Below, in pieces: positions 3,001 to 57,215 of a stretch of 64,000 bases of DNA. Below the pieces are notes generated by a model. It was not told the DNA's origin. It worked only from the letters and a program-made list of their open reading frames with translations, and searched no databases. This DNA is from Aureliella helgolandensis (GTDB taxonomy: Bacteria > Planctomycetota > Planctomycetia > Pirellulales > Pirellulaceae). The stretch spans positions 6,138,859 through 6,202,858 of the forward strand of contig NZ_CP036298.1 in NCBI RefSeq assembly GCF_007752135.1, in the 5' to 3' direction. The position numbers and the translations under genes were made by a program. Every line of letters begins with the position of its first letter. The first letter of the stretch is position 1.

Positions 3001-6000
3001 ATCTGAATCGCCATTGTCGGGGAGCGATAGCATGGCATCGATCGAAAAGCCAGTCGTACTACCGTCGCCGAACTTGCCACCCTCGATACCCAAATCGAGC
3101 AACCCCAGCGAGGCAGTGAGATCGATATTGTTGGCGAGAATCGTCGCTTTGACGGAAACCTTACTACCGTCGGTATCGATGAAGAATTGATCCGCCACCG
3201 ACCCGCGCAGCAGGTGCTCTCCTTCAATAGTGGTCGAATCATCGTAGTCGGAGGTCAGGTCAGAGTCCACGTCCAGCGTGGCACCCAAGATGCCAAGCCC
3301 GCCTGCGGCCGAGCTGGTTCCAAAGGAACTCTTAGCCGCCGCGATGCTCATGCGTTTTTCATCAACGGGCGTGGTCAGGTCAACGATTTGTAAACGGTCA
3401 TCAACTAGGTTTACGGCAATTTTTCCAGCGAATGGAGCTTGAATCTTCGACTGCACATCGCCGATGGTCTGAGCACCGTCGAGAGCAATAGAGTGCTGGC
3501 TGCCATCGGCCAAAGTGATGTCCAAGTCCGCTTCATTGCTAACTTGCCCCGCCGTGAAGCCGAACGCGACTGCCGTGCCGGCAAGAATCGACAATTGATT
3601 GATCGAGTCGTCTTCGGCGATCAAGATCAGTTTGTCGCCGTTCATGGTCGCTCGAATCGGCTGCTCAGCATCCTTCAGAGCGTCGCCGATATCAAAGGCT
3701 AGATCTTCGGCCGAGACATTGTCTGACAACGCGCCTGCTGTCAATGTGACATTGACGTTTTCAGGCGTGGCGACACCGAAACGATGGATCGCGAACTTTA
3801 AGTCGAGCGGTCCTGGGGCTGAAATGCCGGGCACCGCGCTGCCTGTGACGGCAACTTGGATCGCAATCCCCTTGCCACCGTTGAGCGAAGTCAGTGGCGT
3901 GGCTGGAGTCAACGACTCGCCCGCCGCAGCTCGATTGAGATCGAGGCCCACTTTCAAGTTCAGACCGGCCTTCGCTTCGAAGGTCGCATCGGTGCCTCCA
4001 GCTAGGTTCAGATCGGCGAAGCCCAAGTTGATGGCTTGGGAGAAATCCAGATCGATCGACTTCGAGTATATTTTATTGAGATCCAACCCGAATGTAATAC
4101 GTTTGTGCGCACTGTCGTAAACCAACGACGTGCTTGTGGACGTGTCATTTAGAATCGGTAAGACTTCGTTTAGTACAGCGACCAAGTCCTGCACGTTGGC
4201 AACTCGCAGTTTCGCTGTCGCGACTTGTGAAACACCCAGTCCCAGTACACTGTTGGCCGGATTGACATCTTCGGCTTGCGTTGCACTCAGTCCAAGGCTT
4301 GATCCGCCGGAGACCGAGAGTGATTGCGTAGTACTATCGAGTGCAGCGAGTCGAATGTGGCCATCGACGGCTTGGGCGACGATCAAATCGCTCAGCAGCG
4401 ATCCATCACCGATGTCGACCGCCATGGCTGTGTTCAAATCTCGCACCAAATTGGCGAGTGTGGCATTCGACGTGATAGCCCCGGCCGGTAGTGTTACTGC
4501 TACACTCTGCGGGTCGTTGCTATTCTTCGTCTCGATCGTGAAATTCAGCTTCACATCTTGACCGATGCGACCACTGCTGGGTGCTGGCGCTGAGCCAGTG
4601 ATTTGCAGTGTACTAACGCTAAATGCACTGCCAGCAGATTGGTTCTTCAGACGTATGGATAGCTTGTTAGCGTTCCCATCGGTGCCAGTTGCTCGCACCG
4701 CTTCGACTTTGTCCCCCACTCCAGCATTCACCAGTGCTTGGTTGATGTCGTCGTACAGGTCGTTGATCGTTAAATTGTCGCTCGTAGCGGCAGCATGTAG
4801 CGTTACCAATACGGGGTCGTTGTCTGCGATGCGTAGCACGAAACTGGCGTCGCTAGTCAATACGCCCGTCGTTGCCGAAATCTCGTGCTCGCCTTGCAAC
4901 TGCGCCTTGTCGAATAGCTGGCTCGCCAAATTCTCGGTTTGATCTAGAAAACCGGCGACCGAACTGATGGAATCCTTCACGAACGGAATACCACCGGGAA
5001 CATCTAGCTTACTCATCACGGAGTCGATGGAGTCACCGAGCTGAATAACCATCGACAGCACGTCGGCGGGTGACAGGTCCGAGAAGTCCTCGAACGTAGC
5101 AACTCCAGCGACGACAGTACCACTGGTCGACAACCCATTCAGGGTTGAGAAGTCACTGAAGCTTTGCGAGCCAGCAGTGCTAACGTTGATCTTCCCTGTC
5201 GTGCCGGCTAGATCGGGCGTCAGCGACAATCCAGGAATGTTGTAGGTGCCGCTAACAACCGCAGGCTTGAAAAAGGCATAGTTGTCGGGCGCGAGCTGGC
5301 TGATCGTTGTACCACCAATGTTTTCAATGCTCGCACCAATGGTCGTGTCAAACATGACGCCGCTGTTGGCACTCGACTCCTGCAGAACCGCTTTCATGAA
5401 TCCCAGCGAGCCTACGATCGTTGGATCATCCAGTGTGGCGGAAAGTTTAATGCTCACTTCATGTGCTGCATCACTTTTGATTCGCAGGCGATCTCCGCTT
5501 GCCGTGGCGGGATTGAGGTCCACTTCCAGAGGCAGTTTGAACGTCGGAGCGGCATGCAGCGTGAAATCGCCCGATTCGTCAAACTTCAAACCATCCAGCG
5601 GCCCTTTAGCCCCAGGCAAAGCCCCAGCCTCGGTCAGGTCCAGACGCACGGGAATGTCCAAAACTGTTGGTGAAAACGTCGACGTCAGCGAGAGGGTCGT
5701 GCCGCTGAGTGTGATAGCCGTCATGGTGATCCCCAGCGGCCCAGCAAGATCACTCAGGACTTGCCCCAGAGTTGGATCGGATTCGCTCTGCTGATATCGC
5801 TCCAAGGCAGCCCGCAGCGAGTCGCCGAAGAGAGTTGTGTCTGTTGCCGAATCGAGCGCAGGACCGCCGTACAAATCATGCTTGCCACCCACGTTGAACG
5901 AGAACGATGGGTTGGTGGTGTCCGGTGTATCGCCGCGCGAGGCAGGATAACTCAAAGTCACCGTTCTGCCTCTGACTGCGACAACGGTAGCGCTAAAATG

Positions 6001-49527: not shown

Positions 49528-52500
49528 ATGAATCAACATTGCCCACTTTCCGCTAATCCGCGCTTGGTCGGGGATCCGGTCGATACCATGACCGGTGCCG
49601 TGGTCGAAGCCCAACGCGACTTTCGACTGGCCGGGCATTTGCCACTGCAGTGGTGGAGACACTATGACAGCTCCCGAGTTGATCAAAAATTTTCCCTGGG
49701 GTGGGGACAATCGCATGATTTCGATTGTTGGTTGCGATTCGACCAAGATGGCATGCGTTACGAAGCTCCGCTGGGGCAATCCACCCACTTTCCGCCACTC
49801 CTAGAAGATGGTCAACGCGTTGCCGCTCAAGGCATGACCCTCACGCGGCTCGATCGGACGCGATATGCGTTGCAGGAACGCGGTTACCCCATCCGCGAAT
49901 TTCATTTCACCGACTTCAGCCATCCCACTCCCTTGGCCCGCCTAGTCAAAGGGAGCCACGCGATCACGTTTCACTACGATCGCCAGCGACGCTTGAACGA
50001 AATCGTCGATTCTCTGGGGACCAGTATTGACGTTGCCACCCGCGAGGATGGCTTGATCTTAGGATTGTCGATCCCTAAGACGGAGCAGCGCGAACGACGC
50101 GATTTGTTGCGATACGAATACGATGCCAGTGGCAATTTAATCGCAGGGCACGATGGTTTCGGTAGTCGTTTCTCGATGGCCTACGATGCGGCCAATCGTC
50201 TGTTGCGCAAGACCGACCGCATCGGACACACCTTTGAATTCACCTACGACGCCGATGGACGATGCACTCGTACCGCCGGGACCGATGGGGTGCTCGATCA
50301 TCGTTTGGAATACGTGCGGCCCGGGGAGCTGACTCGGGTCACGCGTGGCAATGGAGGGGCATGGAATTACCGCTATCTCCTGGGACAGTTGAGTTCCATT
50401 ACCGATCCGCTGGGGGGCGTTGAAAAGTTCGTCTATGACGAAGACGGTAAACTCATTCAGGAGCTCGATACCAACGGCAATGCCACCGATATCATCCGTG
50501 ACGACAGCGGAGCAATTGTTGGCAAACGCGATCCGCTCGGCAATGTCCATGCCGAGCCACGAGAGCCCAATGCTCCCGATCCCCGCGCGCATCGCGTCGC
50601 ACAAAACGCAGCTGAATATGAATTCGGTCGCTTGATCAACATCGAGCCACGTCACTCCGCGAGGCCCGTTACCGAATCAACTCCCAGTGAGACCAATCAA
50701 GCTCCAGAGAGTTATGTCGAAAAGGCCAATCTGTTTTCGAGCGCCAATCTCGGATTTGTGGTGGGGCGCCAATGGTGGCCCGAGCCGAGTAGCGGTCGGC
50801 TGTTTGATGCTACGGGTGATTTAATTCAACAAATCGATCGTCGCGGCAATTCGCGGCGTTGGATGTACGATGGCAACGGAAATGTCACCAAATTCGTCGA
50901 CTTTGATGGTGGCGCGTGGAAGTATCAGTACCAGTCGTGGAATCACCTGGTCAGCGAAGTCAATCCGTTGGGGCTGACCAACCGCATGGAATACGACTCG
51001 CAAGAGAACTTGACCGCCTTCATCGACGCTGGCGGCACGCGTAGCGAGTACGCCTACGATCTCAAGGATGAACTTGTCGAAGTGCGTCGTCACGGACAAC
51101 TCCGCGAGCGCTACCAGCGCGATAGTGCAGGGAATTTGGTAGGCAAATACGCTGCCGACGGTCGCCTGCTCATGCTGCGCGAGATCGGCGCGGGGAATCT
51201 ACTTACCAAGCGTGCGCTCAGTTCTGGTGAACAACAGACCTATGCTTATGACGAGCAAGGGCGTTTCCTAAACGCCAACACGAACAAGGATGCGATCGAG
51301 TTTGAGTATGACGCGCTCGGGAATCGAAGCGTGGAAAAACGCAACGGCCGAGGCGTAGCTCATGACTTTCGTGGCTGGCGACAGTTCGGTGAGAGTCTGT
51401 GGCTGGACAAATTCCAGATAGCTCAGACTCAGGCCGAGGACAATACGCTGGTGATTAGTGATCCTACAGGTGGAAAGCACCGTGTAAGGGTCTTAGCGGA
51501 CGGACGCGTCGAACGCCGTTATAGCAATGGCACTGTAGAGACTCTCAGCTACGATGAGCTTGGTCGCTGCGAATCAAAGACGGTCGAGCGGATGGGAGCC
51601 AAGCTTTGGCAGCGAGATTATCAGTGGTCGGGCGAAGGGGAACTACGACAAGTCGACGATAGTTACGCCGGGACGACGCGTCATCAGTACGACGCTGCCC
51701 ATCGCTTGCGCGGTCGCACACTCCCCAATGGGCAACAGGAATCGTATCGTTTTGACGATGCCAACAATCTCCTTGAACAACCGGGCCTGCAGGATGTCAG
51801 TCTGCACGCAGGGAATCAGCTGGCGTCCGCCGGTGACGAGACATTTGATTACAACGACCGCAATCACATCTCAGAGCGCAAGACGGCTCGAGAGATGATC
51901 AAGTATTTTTACGACGACCGCGATCAATTGATTCGAGTCGAATCGGCGAATGGAGTTTGGGAAGCCGAGTACGATGCCTTGGGACGTCGAGTTCGCAAGA
52001 CCTTTAACGGTGCGACTACTGAGTATCTCTGGAACACCGATCAGTTAGCCGGTGAAATTGCACCCGACGGTCGCTTGCGGTTGTACGTTTTCGCTGATCC
52101 GCTAGCGCTCACTCCGATGATGTTTGCCGATTATGATTCGGTCGACGCCGAACCGAACTCGGGCAAGCGGTACATCGTGCTCAGCGATCAGATCGGCACG
52201 CCGATTTGTATTGAGGACGCAGCCGGGCAGGTTGTTTGGCGGGCGAGTATCGAACCCTTCGGTGAAGCTCGGCTTGCCTCCGAAAATCGCATTGACTTTA
52301 ATTTGCGTTTCCCAGGCCATTACTGGGACGAAGATGTTTCGTTGAATTACAACCGTTTTCGGTTTTACGATCCGAAACTGGGACGGTATATACAGAGCGA
52401 TCCGATTGGGATCGCGGGCGGAGATAATGTTTATGCGTACGCGACGAATCCTTTGTGTCTTGTCGACGTTCGCGGTCTTACCTCGCCCGATTGTGCAACA

Positions 52501-52923
52501 TGCGGTGGAAAGCACCCTCCTTCTGAGGAATGTACTGACGACGCAGAGCTTATACCTGGATTCAACAAAGCAGAATCCGAGACTATTCGTGAAGCAAAAG
52601 GAATTTTGAGTTCGGAACAAATGGCCGCCATTCGAGAGGCTCACGAGAGAGGAGAGTCAGTTACTGTGGTGATCGATGGAAGAACTGTTCAGTATGAACC
52701 GGGTTTACCTGCATCTGGGATGACAATGTTTGGAGAAGACGGTTTTCTCATTGGGCGAGAGGCATTCTCGACGCCGGGTGAGTTAGAAAAGACGGTGCTG
52801 CATGAACTTCATCGTCTAAACACAAGTGAGTCGAGCGGCGGCGTGTCGGGTGCCCTTGCGACTAACGAAACCAAAGCTGCAGCAGATTTTGCTGATCGTG
52901 GAGCGGAGGAACTCAACCGGTGA
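49528..52923 (+). CDS. RHS-repeat polymorphic toxin protein
   Basis: A 1131-residue RHS protein. Residues about 10-90 are the DUF6531-like N-terminal domain (NPRLVGDPVDTMTGAVVEAQ, RDFRLAGHLPLQWWRHYDSS). YD repeats fill about 100-930 (YDASGNLIAGHDGFGSRFSM and similar). The conserved core end is at about 940-985 (YNRFRFYDPKLGRYIQSDPI, then NPLCLVDVRGL). The last about 145 residues are the variable toxin: CATCGGKHPPSEEC, IREAHERGESVTVVIDGRTV, and TVLHELHRLNTS...NETKAAADFADR. I do not know the toxin family. Translation is coupled to the next gene (GTGA overlap), which suggests an immunity partner. Confidence 0.92.
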   Translation: MNQHCPLSANPRLVGDPVDTMTGAVVEAQRDFRLAGHLPLQWWRHYDSSRVDQKFSLGWGQSHDFDCWLRFDQDGMRYEAPLGQSTHFPPLLEDGQRVAAQGMTLTRLDRTRYALQERGYPIREFHFTDFSHPTPLARLVKGSHAITFHYDRQRRLNEIVDSLGTSIDVATREDGLILGLSIPKTEQRERRDLLRYEYDASGNLIAGHDGFGSRFSMAYDAANRLLRKTDRIGHTFEFTYDADGRCTRTAGTDGVLDHRLEYVRPGELTRVTRGNGGAWNYRYLLGQLSSITDPLGGVEKFVYDEDGKLIQELDTNGNATDIIRDDSGAIVGKRDPLGNVHAEPREPNAPDPRAHRVAQNAAEYEFGRLINIEPRHSARPVTESTPSETNQAPESYVEKANLFSSANLGFVVGRQWWPEPSSGRLFDATGDLIQQIDRRGNSRRWMYDGNGNVTKFVDFDGGAWKYQYQSWNHLVSEVNPLGLTNRMEYDSQENLTAFIDAGGTRSEYAYDLKDELVEVRRHGQLRERYQRDSAGNLVGKYAADGRLLMLREIGAGNLLTKRALSSGEQQTYAYDEQGRFLNANTNKDAIEFEYDALGNRSVEKRNGRGVAHDFRGWRQFGESLWLDKFQIAQTQAEDNTLVISDPTGGKHRVRVLADGRVERRYSNGTVETLSYDELGRCESKTVERMGAKLWQRDYQWSGEGELRQVDDSYAGTTRHQYDAAHRLRGRTLPNGQQESYRFDDANNLLEQPGLQDVSLHAGNQLASAGDETFDYNDRNHISERKTAREMIKYFYDDRDQLIRVESANGVWEAEYDALGRRVRKTFNGATTEYLWNTDQLAGEIAPDGRLRLYVFADPLALTPMMFADYDSVDAEPNSGKRYIVLSDQIGTPICIEDAAGQVVWRASIEPFGEARLASENRIDFNLRFPGHYWDEDVSLNYNRFRFYDPKLGRYIQSDPIGIAGGDNVYAYATNPLCLVDVRGLTSPDCATCGGKHPPSEECTDDAELIPGFNKAESETIREAKGILSSEQMAAIREAHERGESVTVVIDGRTVQYEPGLPASGMTMFGEDGFLIGREAFSTPGELEKTVLHELHRLNTSESSGGVSGALATNETKAAADFADRGAEELNR

Positions 52924-53740: not shown

Positions 53741-53774
53741 TCTGAATGAGGGTTGATGGACTTCCGCCGACGGG

Positions 53775-54087
53775 CCGGACGGAGGCTTGCATGCGAATGC
53801 GGTGTAATGGTAGCTGCCAGTTGTGACGTCAGACCGGGACAAGCCCGACGGAAGTCGATTCGACGCCTGGACTGATTCTGTGGGCAGCTCGTCCGGGCAA
53901 GTGTGTGAATGTCTGGACATGGAGTGTGAAAATCCGTTGGGACTTAATGTTCGGTTCTGGGCTTCCGCCGGGCTTGACCCGGTCCGGAGCCAACAACTGG
54001 GAGCTACGACAGCTACAATAAAAACCATCCTGTTTGCATCTCTTCCGATCTCCGGCTCGGGATTGCCCCGGCGGAATCAACGACTCG
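53775..54087. repeat. 313-bp direct repeat, left copy (family C)
   Basis: From CCGGACGGAGGC to CGGAATCAACGACTCG. It matches 55227-55539 base for base in length, with roughly a dozen differences. Internal GC-rich hairpins are present (for example CCGCCGGGCTTGACCCGG). An open plus frame crosses both copies but is not a gene. It lies 17 bp upstream of the transposase start. Confidence 0.9.
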
Positions 54088-54104: not shown

Positions 54105-55259
54105 ATGGATCCAATCTATTCGGCAGACAATACCACCACAGCCTATCAACTAAATTGGTCGTTAGCCCTATTCGGCAAGGCCGCCTTGCCCGACTCATCT
54201 CTCTGGCTGATTGATCTCTCCGCTGCCACCGAGAAAGATGGCGTCAGAATTCTCTCAGCGAATTCACGTTCGGAAAACGTGATTCAATTCCTCATCAGCA
54301 CTCGTCCCGAGTCTTCACCATCGGATTGCGTCAGAAGTGTTAAAGGACGCTTGCAGTATCTAATTCGAGACCACAATCCCAAAGCCTTTCGCCGCAACTA
54401 TCATATTCACAGCGTGGGCGAGACAACTTCCAGCGCACTAGACGAATATGTTGCCAGGCAAACAGCCAAACATCCTATGGCCGATCCCAAGGTTCAAGCT
54501 CGTTTGGAAGCGAATCAATTCTTGGATCCTGAGATTGATTTGTCTAAGTGTATAGCGACAACTAGATTTGCCGGCCGTGTTGCCTCAATCAATGAAGATA
54601 CCGAAATAAGACACTCTTCTGAGTAATTAGGGGATTGGGGAATCGCTAAGCGTTGCCTTCGTCGGAGCCGGCCGTCGGTCGTTCAAACATAGCGATGACT
54701 GGCGGCCGGCGCAGTGAAGGCAAACGCTCGTTGCCTTTGTTGGAAGGTCATAGGGAGCGAATTCGGTATCTTTCTGTTGAGGCAACCACTACCGTTCGGT
54801 ATCCATTCAGTTGAGGCAATGCGAAGCGCAGAGGTAGTTGTCGCCGAACAGTCTAAGCCTGAAATCGGTGCTTATGGACAGTATTTGAATTCGCTGCACA
54901 TCGTGATGGAGAATGCAGATGGCTTGCATGAAGTGCGCGAAGATGAGTTGCAAGCGGTACGTGATATCGTGATTCGAGCCACCGCAAAAAAGAATTGGTG
55001 GCTATCCCGGATCGGACTGCTTAGCAATCACCTGCATGTTCTGCTTGGAGCACGGGTGACGGATTCGCCTCAAGCGGTGGCGCTGTCGCTGATGAATAAT
55101 ATCGCGTATGTGTACGAGATGAAAGCGATTCTGAAATTCAGCTATTATGCGGGGACATTTGCGGGATATGATCGAGGGGCGATAAGATTGCATGCTACAC
55201 AAGTCGCTGGCCCCGCCGGGACGAGCCCGGACGGAGGCCCGCATGCGAATGCGGTGTAA
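54105..55259 (+). pseudogene. HUH (Y1/RAYT-like) transposase gene split by an inserted element
   Basis: Two frames make one protein. The left part (ATG 54105, GGAGG upstream, 148 codons to AAG 54548) reads MDPIYSADNTTTAYQLNWSL, CVRSVKGRLQYLIRDHNPKA, HPMADPKVQARLEANQFL and DPEIDLSK. The right part (from 54858) reads PEIGAYGQYLNSLHIVMENA, KKNWWLSRIGLLSNHLHVLL, ALSLMNNIAYVYEMKAILKF. HLH is the likely HUH motif, and Tyr in AYVYEM may be the nucleophile. Removing 54549-54857 joins the parts in frame to give 281 residues. Present frames (to 54626, and from 54714) run into the insert. Flanking 313-bp repeats support an REP-associated transposase. Confidence 0.7.
54549..54850. mobile_element. 302-bp MITE-like element with 7-bp target duplication
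   Basis: Direct repeats GTCTAAG lie at 54542-54548 and 54851-54857. The element begins TGTATAGCGACAACTA, and its other end, read inverted, begins TGTTCGGCGACAACTA: 13 of 16 positions agree. Subterminal TTGCCTCAA...ATACCGAA is matched inverted by two tandem copies near the right end (TTCGGTATCTTTCTGTTGAG; TTCGGTATCCATTCAGTTGA). The centre folds into a large hairpin (AGCGTTGCCTTC...GCCGGCCG / CGGCCGGC...GAAGGCAAACGCT). It has no coding capacity of its own, so it needs a transposase in trans. Confidence 0.85.
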
Positions 55260-55539
55260 TGGTAGCTGCCAGTTGTGACAACCGACCGGGACAAGCCCGA
55301 CGGAAGTCGATTCGACGCCTGGACTGATTCTGTGGGCAGCTCGTCCGGGCAAGTGTGTGAATGTCTGGACATGGAGTGTGAAAATCCGTTGGGACTTAAT
55401 GTTCGGTTCTGGGCTTCCGCCGGGCTTGCCCCGGTCCGGAGCCAACAACTGGGAGCTACAACGGCTACAATAAAAATCATCCTGTTTGCTGCTCTTCCGA
55501 TCTCCGGCTCGGGCTTGCCCCGGCGGAATCAACGACTCG
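55227..55539. repeat. 313-bp direct repeat, right copy (family C)
   Basis: The counterpart of 53775-54087, same length and orientation. The preceding GCCCCGCCGGGACGAGC matches the partial copy at 53641. The 3' end of the transposase frame reads into this repeat (..GPAGTSPDGGPHANAV). Confidence 0.9.
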
Positions 55540-55613
55540 GAGGCAAGAGTTCAAATCAACTTGACAGCGCAAAGTCGCTTGCGTGCAAATAACAAATCAC
55601 GCAGCTAAGTCAA

Positions 55614-57215
55614 ATGGAACCGCGTGTGACCGCTCAGCCCTTTTCAAATAGCTACGACGAAGTTCCCTACAACAGTTATCCCTATGCACTCGCTCATCCA
55701 GATCATATTGCCATGATTGCGGTGTTGTTGAGGTTAAATCCGCCACGTAGACCTTATCGCGTGTTGGAATTGGGATGCGCATCGGGAGGGAATCTGATCC
55801 CGATCGCAGCTAGTCGCCCTGACTGTAGTTTTGTGGGGGTCGATTACTCGACGCGTCAAATTGCTACTGGACAATTGATAGTCGATCAACTGAGGCTGAC
55901 TAATATTGAGCTGCTGGTCCAGAGTATACTCGACGTGGAGAAAACGATCGGTCGCTTTGATTACATCCTATGTCATGGCGTCTATTCCTGGGTGCCGAGC
56001 GACGTGCAAGTCAAAATATTAGACTTATGCCGTTCGCTGTTGACAGAGCAGGGGATTGCTTACATCAGCTACAACACACAGCCCGGTTGGCGACAGCGTG
56101 GCGCGCTGCGTGATATGATGCAGTATCATGTTGGGCGGAGTGCGGGGAGTAGTCCTGCCCAGCGGATCGATCAAGCGCGAGGACTACTCGACTTCCTGGT
56201 CAACGCGACCAGCACCACGGATAATTCGTACGCCCGAATGCTACGAGAACAGCAGGAACTGCTGGGAAAACACTCCGACTCGTATATCTACCACGAACAT
56301 CTCGAGCGACACAACGAACCATTGTGGTTTCTCGATTTCTGCCACCGACTCGATCAGCATGGACTGCGATATTTAGGTGAGGCAGATTTCAGTTCAATGG
56401 TGGGTAGCATGTCACTCACCCCCGAACTCCAACAGCAGTTGGACGATCTAGCCCCGGATTTGACGGAGAAAGAGCAATACATCGACTTCGTGCGCAATCG
56501 TTCCTTTCGGCAAACCCTGGTTTGTCATGCTCGTCAGCGCCCCAACTACGCAGTGCGCGGCGAGCGACTGCGAGGATTGTTTGCGGCGACGCCGGGACGC
56601 GTGCAAATGAATGACGGTGAGGGTGGCGAGCCGAAGTGGCGTTTGGTAGTCAACGATGATTTGTCGCTTTCTACCGACCTACGGACCACGCAGATAGCCT
56701 TTGAATTGCTCAGCCAAGCTTGGCCAGAGCGAATTCCGGTGGCGCTGTTGGTGGATCAAGTGGCTGAACAGCTCAATGATCCCACGCTGGATCGCGCTGA
56801 ACTACAGCGAACGCTAGAAGTCGCACTACTCACTGCTTTCTCGTCGAGCAGTGGAGAGGTAGTTGAGCTTTCCGTTTCCCCATTGAACAGTATGGTCGAC
56901 GAGAGTGAAAACCATGGCGCCCCCATGGTCAGTCGGCTTGTTCAACTGCAAGCACGCGAGGGGATGCCCGTGGTCAATCGTCGGCACAATCTACTCCCGG
57001 TGATGCCGCTCGATCGTCGCATCTTGTCGCTGTTGGATGGTACATGCGATGGTGAACAACTATTGGTTGAATTGCTCGCGCAACATCAAAGCGGAGACTT
57101 GATTATTCTTGATGAGCACGATGTACCCATTTCTGATTCTGCGGTTATTACCAGTATGCTAAGGGAACTAGTTCCACAGCGAATGGCCCACTACCACCGT
57201 GGTTCGCTCCTATAG
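55614..57215 (+). CDS. SAM-dependent methyltransferase with regulatory domain (protein-lysine-methyltransferase-like)
   Basis: A 533-residue protein. Residues about 45-165 form a Rossmann methyltransferase: motif I VLELGCASGGNLIPIA, motif II FVGVDYSTRQI, then FDYILCHGVYSWVPSDVQ and GIAYISYNTQPGW. Residues about 210-310 match the methyltransferase regulatory domain (YIYHEHLERHNEPLWFLDFC, LRYLGEADFSSM). The C-terminal part (about 330-525) is helical with a PKMT-type ending (HNLLPVMPLDRRILSLLDGT). This is the layout of the rickettsial outer-membrane lysine methyltransferases, so methylation of a surface protein is possible; the substrate is unknown. It appears monocistronic. Confidence 0.82.
   Translation: MEPRVTAQPFSNSYDEVPYNSYPYALAHPDHIAMIAVLLRLNPPRRPYRVLELGCASGGNLIPIAASRPDCSFVGVDYSTRQIATGQLIVDQLRLTNIELLVQSILDVEKTIGRFDYILCHGVYSWVPSDVQVKILDLCRSLLTEQGIAYISYNTQPGWRQRGALRDMMQYHVGRSAGSSPAQRIDQARGLLDFLVNATSTTDNSYARMLREQQELLGKHSDSYIYHEHLERHNEPLWFLDFCHRLDQHGLRYLGEADFSSMVGSMSLTPELQQQLDDLAPDLTEKEQYIDFVRNRSFRQTLVCHARQRPNYAVRGERLRGLFAATPGRVQMNDGEGGEPKWRLVVNDDLSLSTDLRTTQIAFELLSQAWPERIPVALLVDQVAEQLNDPTLDRAELQRTLEVALLTAFSSSSGEVVELSVSPLNSMVDESENHGAPMVSRLVQLQAREGMPVVNRRHNLLPVMPLDRRILSLLDGTCDGEQLLVELLAQHQSGDLIILDEHDVPISDSAVITSMLRELVPQRMAHYHRGSLL

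Follow-up and report, generated by a model that had tools for sequence, protein, structure and literature searches.

The window analyzed here is a 64,000-nucleotide stretch of the Aureliella helgolandensis genome, in which a Y1/HUH transposase gene is interrupted by a short element. The features of this locus are as follows.

53764 to 54087, no strand: upstream REP-type repeat block, a 95% copy of the one downstream of the host gene
54105 to 54548, plus strand: left part of the interrupted Y1/HUH transposase gene, 148 codons (Pfam Y1_Tnp, 9.2e-7)
54542 to 54548, plus strand: left copy of the target duplication GTCTAAG
54549 to 54850: the element (insert), 302 bp, with the GTCTAAG duplication and inverted-repeat ends
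54549 to 54575, plus strand: left tip, 27 bp, with exactly the sequence of the left end unit (L1) in a resident IS21-family insertion sequence (IS)
54576 to 54823, plus strand: inner body, 248 bp, an internally deleted ISBj12-like element (ISB) plus a hairpin
54576 to 54607, plus strand: ISB outer end (CGTGTTGCCTCA...GATACC), by-eye comparison with the ISB core of genome G179
54652 to 54745, no strand: REP-like hairpin, with similar hairpins free-standing in relatives
54758 to 54823, minus strand: ISB inner end (CGCATTGCCTCA...GATACC, plus a second TTGCCTCAA repeat)
54824 to 54850, minus strand: right tip, 27 bp, with exactly the sequence of the right end unit (R1) in that IS
54851 to 54857, plus strand: right copy of the target duplication GTCTAAG
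54858 to 55259, plus strand: right part of the interrupted transposase gene, to which homologues align until about 55241
55200 to 55545, no strand: REP-type repeat block downstream of the host gene, with 29 genome matches, itself and the upstream copy counted

Upstream of the locus lies a large RHS-repeat protein gene (49528-52923; Pfam RHS_repeat, 1.5e-49), and directly downstream a gene for a methyltransferase with a regulatory domain (MethyTransf_Reg, 55614-57215).

The initial annotation interpreted the locus as one HUH-type protein gene into which a non-autonomous element has inserted, duplicating 7 bp of target, and our results support this. Joining 54105-54548 to 54858 onward gives an open frame of 281 residues, as had been claimed, and the match to Pfam Y1_Tnp on the left half assigns the joined protein to the Y1 (IS200-like) kind; the right half alone gave no match to this model. 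Two intact homologues that were scanned have two Y1_Tnp stretches each. The joined protein was matched in 40 of the 199 genomes of the family, its own included. When the best 12 loci of these matches were aligned, all 12 homologues crossed the junction at residue 148/149, 11 of them without a gap, i.e., the homologues fetched are uninterrupted where the extra segment lies. The closest of these has 79% identity to the left part and 70% to the right part, and an intact paralogue (66%) is found in the same genome at C1:2652681-2653463. Some lower-ranked homologues are matched in two pieces near the junction, 20-56 bases apart (G138, G015), and some contain stops. Past about residue 276 the joined frame enters repeat DNA, where none of the fetched homologues aligns. 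Some matches of the downstream repeat block lie on either side of the paralogue. The host gene has both features looked for in a RAYT gene, namely a Y1_Tnp domain and flanking palindromic repeats common to other loci.

GTCTAAG is indeed present on both sides of the 302-bp segment, whose ends are inverted repeats at 13 of 16 positions, as first described, and at 17 of 27 over the full unit. The subterminal repeats (at 54772 and 54806) and the central hairpin (z of -3.65, with 0 of 200 shuffles equally stable) were likewise borne out. The explanation that there is no genuine element, and that chance repeats lie within a decaying gene, has a negligible probability: no point in its support was found, and the other genomic copies, the target duplication and the uninterrupted homologues all argue against it. 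Chance is excluded by the exact recurrence of both 27-bp tips at the termini of a single 2,708-bp IS, and by that of the inner 248 bp, found at 99% identity elsewhere in the genome. The undecayed gene halves and this 99% identical body fit the earlier proposal that the insertion is recent.

An autonomous IS with the same ends, for which a search had been proposed, is present in the genome itself (8.44 Mb, searched as one contig). It is 2,708 bp long and carries istA and istB; its proteins are assigned to the IS21 family by NCBIfam models (istA 2.4e-57, istB 1.8e-77). The tips of the MITE are identical to its first and last 27 bp (27/27 on each side), and past 27 bp the two share just short chance-level matches on either side. 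The expected 7-bp duplication was not recovered for the IS, which is flanked by a 6-bp one (ACTGAC), and none was seen elsewhere in the genome at the places examined (L010, L011, L012 and the resident IS). Target duplications of IS21-family elements are 4-8 bp long, a range that includes both the 7 bp of the MITE and the 6 bp of the resident IS. When relatives of solved structure were sought by sequence for the resident IstA, none matched at 0.001.

The MITE lacks the two or more IstA repeats per end that were looked for, as its IS21 matches stop at 27 bp and the second repeat is replaced by an ISB end; in vitro, IstA required two complete repeats per end (PMC10122671). A simple internal-deletion derivative of IS21 would have tips identical to IS21, as observed here. 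This origin is nevertheless very improbable, since only short chance-level IS matches are found beyond 27 bp on both sides, and since the 248-bp body bears the ends of another IS and is absent from the resident IS21 copy. Plain internal deletion was ruled out, the body being foreign. The reading of the insert as a MITE therefore stands insofar as it is non-autonomous and shares its ends with a resident IS, and fails insofar as it is not a simple MITE of a single IS, because its interior derives from a different element.

The 248-bp body carries the two termini of ISB at its ends. Compared with the ISB core of G179, the outer end is 76% identical over 59 bp, tip included, and the inner end 86% over 66 bp, and the body has the ISBj12-like core ends CG(C/T)(A/G)TTGCCTCA with GATACC. 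It has no ISBj12-like transposase gene, for which 248 bp is too short. The hairpin between the ISB ends resembles lone hairpins in other genomes of the family (14 loci examined).

Partial copies of the MITE occur at three further places in the genome. At L010 the body (99% identical) lies within a right-end fragment of the resident IS, 27 bp from the tip and flanked by AAGCG on both sides. At L011 the left part of the MITE is fused to IS21 interior, and at L012 left-type units stand on both sides, with flanks GAGGCGAG and GAGTCGCG that on comparison show no exact duplication. The L012 copy (1148-1349) is without 66 bp of the hairpin, the missing stretch being one between two CGTTGCCTT repeats. 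The end types beside the body differ among the window, L010, L011 and L012. A free-standing 248-bp element with only its own ends was rejected, because the body is 27 bp from an IS21-type end at all four places. A query with the ISB transposase matched only a 50% fragment and IstA's domain in this genome, and IstA and IstB are therefore the only matched enzymes found there. The fragment, L095 (C1:5433189-5433536), is the sole ISB-like coding remnant found in the genome; it is 50% identical and shortened, and no IS21 tip was seen beside its end.

Matches of the body in G179 led to ISB, which is 1,678 bp long, encodes a transposase of 491 residues (rve, PF00665) and is located inside a 4,118-bp IS21-family composite. 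Its relatives are named ISNCY in NCBI records, and ISBj12 in one case. The identical ISB gene is found at seven G179 loci, and each of the 8 outer ends seen there is separated by 27 bp from an IS21-type tip; the unit is a left one in six cases, a right one in one and a variant in one. Among the five left-unit composites there are four different inner ISB junctions, as adjacent deletions would leave. One G179 locus, L091, consists of a left unit, ISB, a second ISB inverted and a right unit; it is without istA and istB and is bounded by GCCAG. In three ISB-free IS21 copies of G179 the empty site is visible, and these have 5-bp duplications (CCCAT, TCACT and GGTAC). A 299-bp version of the whole MITE, 70.6% identical, is found in G185, a genome from the genus of G179. 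Its left tip is that of the G179 IS21 (27/27), its right tip is 2 bp shorter, and no duplication surrounds it.

The resemblance to IS21 extends to the ISB protein. A profile of nine ISB proteins compared with four IstA proteins aligned ISB 416-479 with IstA 49-112 (98.3% probability, 47% identity); the catalytic regions gave no match (0.1% probability). A model of the second helix-turn-helix stretch of IstA matched the C terminus of all nine ISB proteins compared, with best-stretch E-values from 2.9e-21 to 9.8e-9. The NCBIfam IS21 model matches the G179 transposase at 413-480 and also all 8 other ISB proteins, weakly for L138 and L142 and with a catalytic best stretch for L135. Of 108 matches of the ISB transposase, the 60 listed are retroviral integrase catalytic cores. 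In the published IstA structure, HTH-2 spans positions 55-104 and makes contact with CS1, one of the two conserved words that each end repeat contains (PMC10122671). We infer that this numbering corresponds to that of the IstA compared here, and that CS1 is the conserved word closer to the tip. ISB may thus locate the IS21 unit through its C-terminal copy of IstA's second helix-turn-helix.

Relatives of ISB were found at 6 loci in a search of genome contigs and in 344 plasmid records at 1e-5, with 173 covering at least 80% of the query; shorter plasmid matches may be IstA's domain alone. In the class, 8 of 397 genomes were matched at E <= 1e-20, two of them just by a fragment (the window's own genome) or by the C-terminal domain (G364). 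The IS21-type end-unit core word YTGHCGC, a motif defined only after the first cases had been seen, was scored with at most one mismatch at 9-20 bases outside the ISB core, and stands beside the core at 44 of 61 ends in 32 relatives from planctomycetes and proteobacteria. The shifted-window control gave 4-14 ends (mean 8.1) over 15 windows. The word was found at one or more ends in 28 of the 32 elements and at both in 16; it is missing from 17 of the 61 ends, and from both ends in 4 elements. This sample was picked by hand and comprises 9 genome loci and 23 plasmid loci, the latter selected for differing genera among the 120 matches listed for one query. It omits the copies that had prompted the idea (G179, G037, G139, G000 and G185), the duplicates L122 and L125, and L120 and L124, whose ends the pattern missed, although both units were seen there later. 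For L118, L136 and L143, only one of the two ends was located. Some matches are closer to the core than the unit predicts, e.g., at offset 9 for the inner ends of L099 and L145.

Duplications were counted in 31 elements (L136 dropped) and point to two ISB arrangements, one in which it lies outside the units and one in which it lies at the core border, with IS21 sequence continuing inward. Duplications of at least 5 bp at the core border were found in 4 of 31 elements (control mean 0.33, maximum 3), and the control maximum reaches 3 because the units have the word CCGG in common. In P. phenoliruptrix and Caballeronia, ISB lies in complete-looking IS21 elements with both istA and istB annotated. 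The former has an outer duplication TTGTTCT and a core duplication GGAGG 26-27 bp from the tip, and the latter an outer CCGAAT and a core GACCGG, placed by reading between the second and third unit. GACCGG is also the core-border duplication in P. phymatum.

Outside the units, duplications of at least 5 bp are seen in 14 of 31 elements (control mean 0.47, maximum 2) and of at least 6 bp in 10 (control mean 0.27, maximum 1). The tips are poor in two of these 14 elements, L098 and L137, and L137 was counted in both duplication classes; in L144 the motif failed, yet a duplication lies outside tip-like ends. Two-tip ISB elements were also found in G318, G382 and G489, where a degenerate pattern at zero mismatches detected the tip only at ISB itself; istB relatives (34-40% identity) are present in four of the five genomes searched and absent from G489. 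In G262, two identical 1,920-bp ISB copies end at the units, both tips included, and no duplication was seen at either. ISB may therefore own the unit as its end and move without IS21. These observations, i.e., the 14 outer duplications, the G262 pair and the three genomes in which no same-tip IS21 was found by pattern, favor an explanation in which the 27-bp units belong to the terminal repeats of ISBj12-like elements, whose own transposase moves unit, core and unit together. The window MITE would then be an ISBj12-family MITE that has IS21-like tips through descent or exchange. We regard this as possible but rather doubtful, as in G179 an identical core adjoins three different units, of which two are the ends of the IS21 resident there, as core-border duplications occur inside complete-looking IS21 elements, and as the left and right ends of a single IS21 copy in the window genome match both tips at 27/27 positions.

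Three further loci are described here for their surroundings. An ISBj12-like element in a Rhodospirillales MAG (L099, about 3700-5900) lies amid repeats that by eye resemble a CRISPR array (GGTCCATCCCCGCGCG...GGGGGAGCC). In a gammaproteobacterial MAG (L096, 3207-3909) the inner end of an ISB relative adjoins a cut istB-like stretch, preceded by IstA-like sequence. A Bradyrhizobium relative (L146, 1860-3760) has inverted copies of another sequence on its two sides and, beyond these, istB and istA.

The best supported explanation is that ISB picks places beside IS21 end units, after which a deletion or a second event, and then travel, would follow. ISB would first have inserted beside an IS21 end unit, a habit of many relatives. 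A deletion would then have joined the ISB remnant to the unit of the other IS21 end, giving L1-ISB-R1, and resident IstA and IstB could have carried this two-tip piece in trans into the transposase gene. As an alternative to adjacent deletion, a second event at the other IS21 end may have produced unit-ISB-unit pieces, which would then travel and leave a duplication beyond the units. We see the window MITE as a degenerate form with two units that was probably moved by IstA and IstB in trans. Against such movement stand the one repeat per end of the MITE versus the two needed in vitro (PMC10122671), and its duplication of 7 bp versus 6 bp for the resident IS. The G185 copy, with no duplication and a shortened right tip, the two-tip ISB elements of G318, G382, G489 and G262, and the 17 of 61 ISB ends without the core word are points against the best explanation as a whole. 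The sequence itself shows the layered structure, the tips shared with IS21, the duplication of 7 bp and homologues without the interruption, and we consider it likely that the element is a three-layer MITE (IS21 units, ISB ends and REP-like hairpin) with the insertion, deletion and trans history proposed here. We are evenly divided on the broader proposal that ISBj12-like elements are chimeras in protein and DNA, with an IS481/IS3-like transposase that has taken over the end-reading helix-turn-helix of IstA and employs it to settle beside, and later to wear, IS21 units. They would be a family-wide parasite of IS21 ends in planctomycetes and proteobacteria, with the window MITE as a fossil.

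MITEs of IS are already known, as are elements that insert at the ends of others. In the literature searched, including passages from PMC8692435, PMC3281130 and PMC10045372, we found neither a link between ISBj12 and IS21 nor an IS21 MITE, and no family uniting IS21 end units with the reading domain of IstA. On the present reading, an anonymous MITE becomes the record of successive steps: first IS21, next ISB, next the hairpin and shrinkage, and last the host gene. This reading also suggests a testable rule, namely that a transposase with a borrowed end-reading domain may find its target by that domain. If true, this would explain the recurrent IS21 ends on a family still listed as 'not classified yet', and nature would here offer a case of transposase retargeting through domain exchange.

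The host gene resembles RAYT/REP systems (PMC3733652) in encoding a Y1 transposase and being flanked by repeat blocks, and the inner hairpin of the MITE is REP-like; its homologues differ in that two intact ones scanned have two Y1_Tnp stretches. Like members of the IS21 family (structure in PMC10122671), the MITE has TG...CA ends, tips identical to those of a resident member, an end unit of the L1/R1 kind and a similar duplication length, but it differs in having one unit per end instead of two, in lacking istA and istB, and in its foreign body. With ISBj12 (in NCBI, 'ISNCY-like element ISBj12 family transposase') it shares the core ends, and relatives of its body carry the rve transposase with a C terminus like IstA HTH-2, whereas the window copy has lost the gene. 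IS4321 and IS5075 insert in Tn21-type ends. IS30 inserts next to its own inverted repeats (PMC9333248). ISB is like all three in that its insertions have a set position with respect to a transposon end, but differs in that its target is the end unit of another family, and in that its transposase has a domain resembling the target family's own end-reader.
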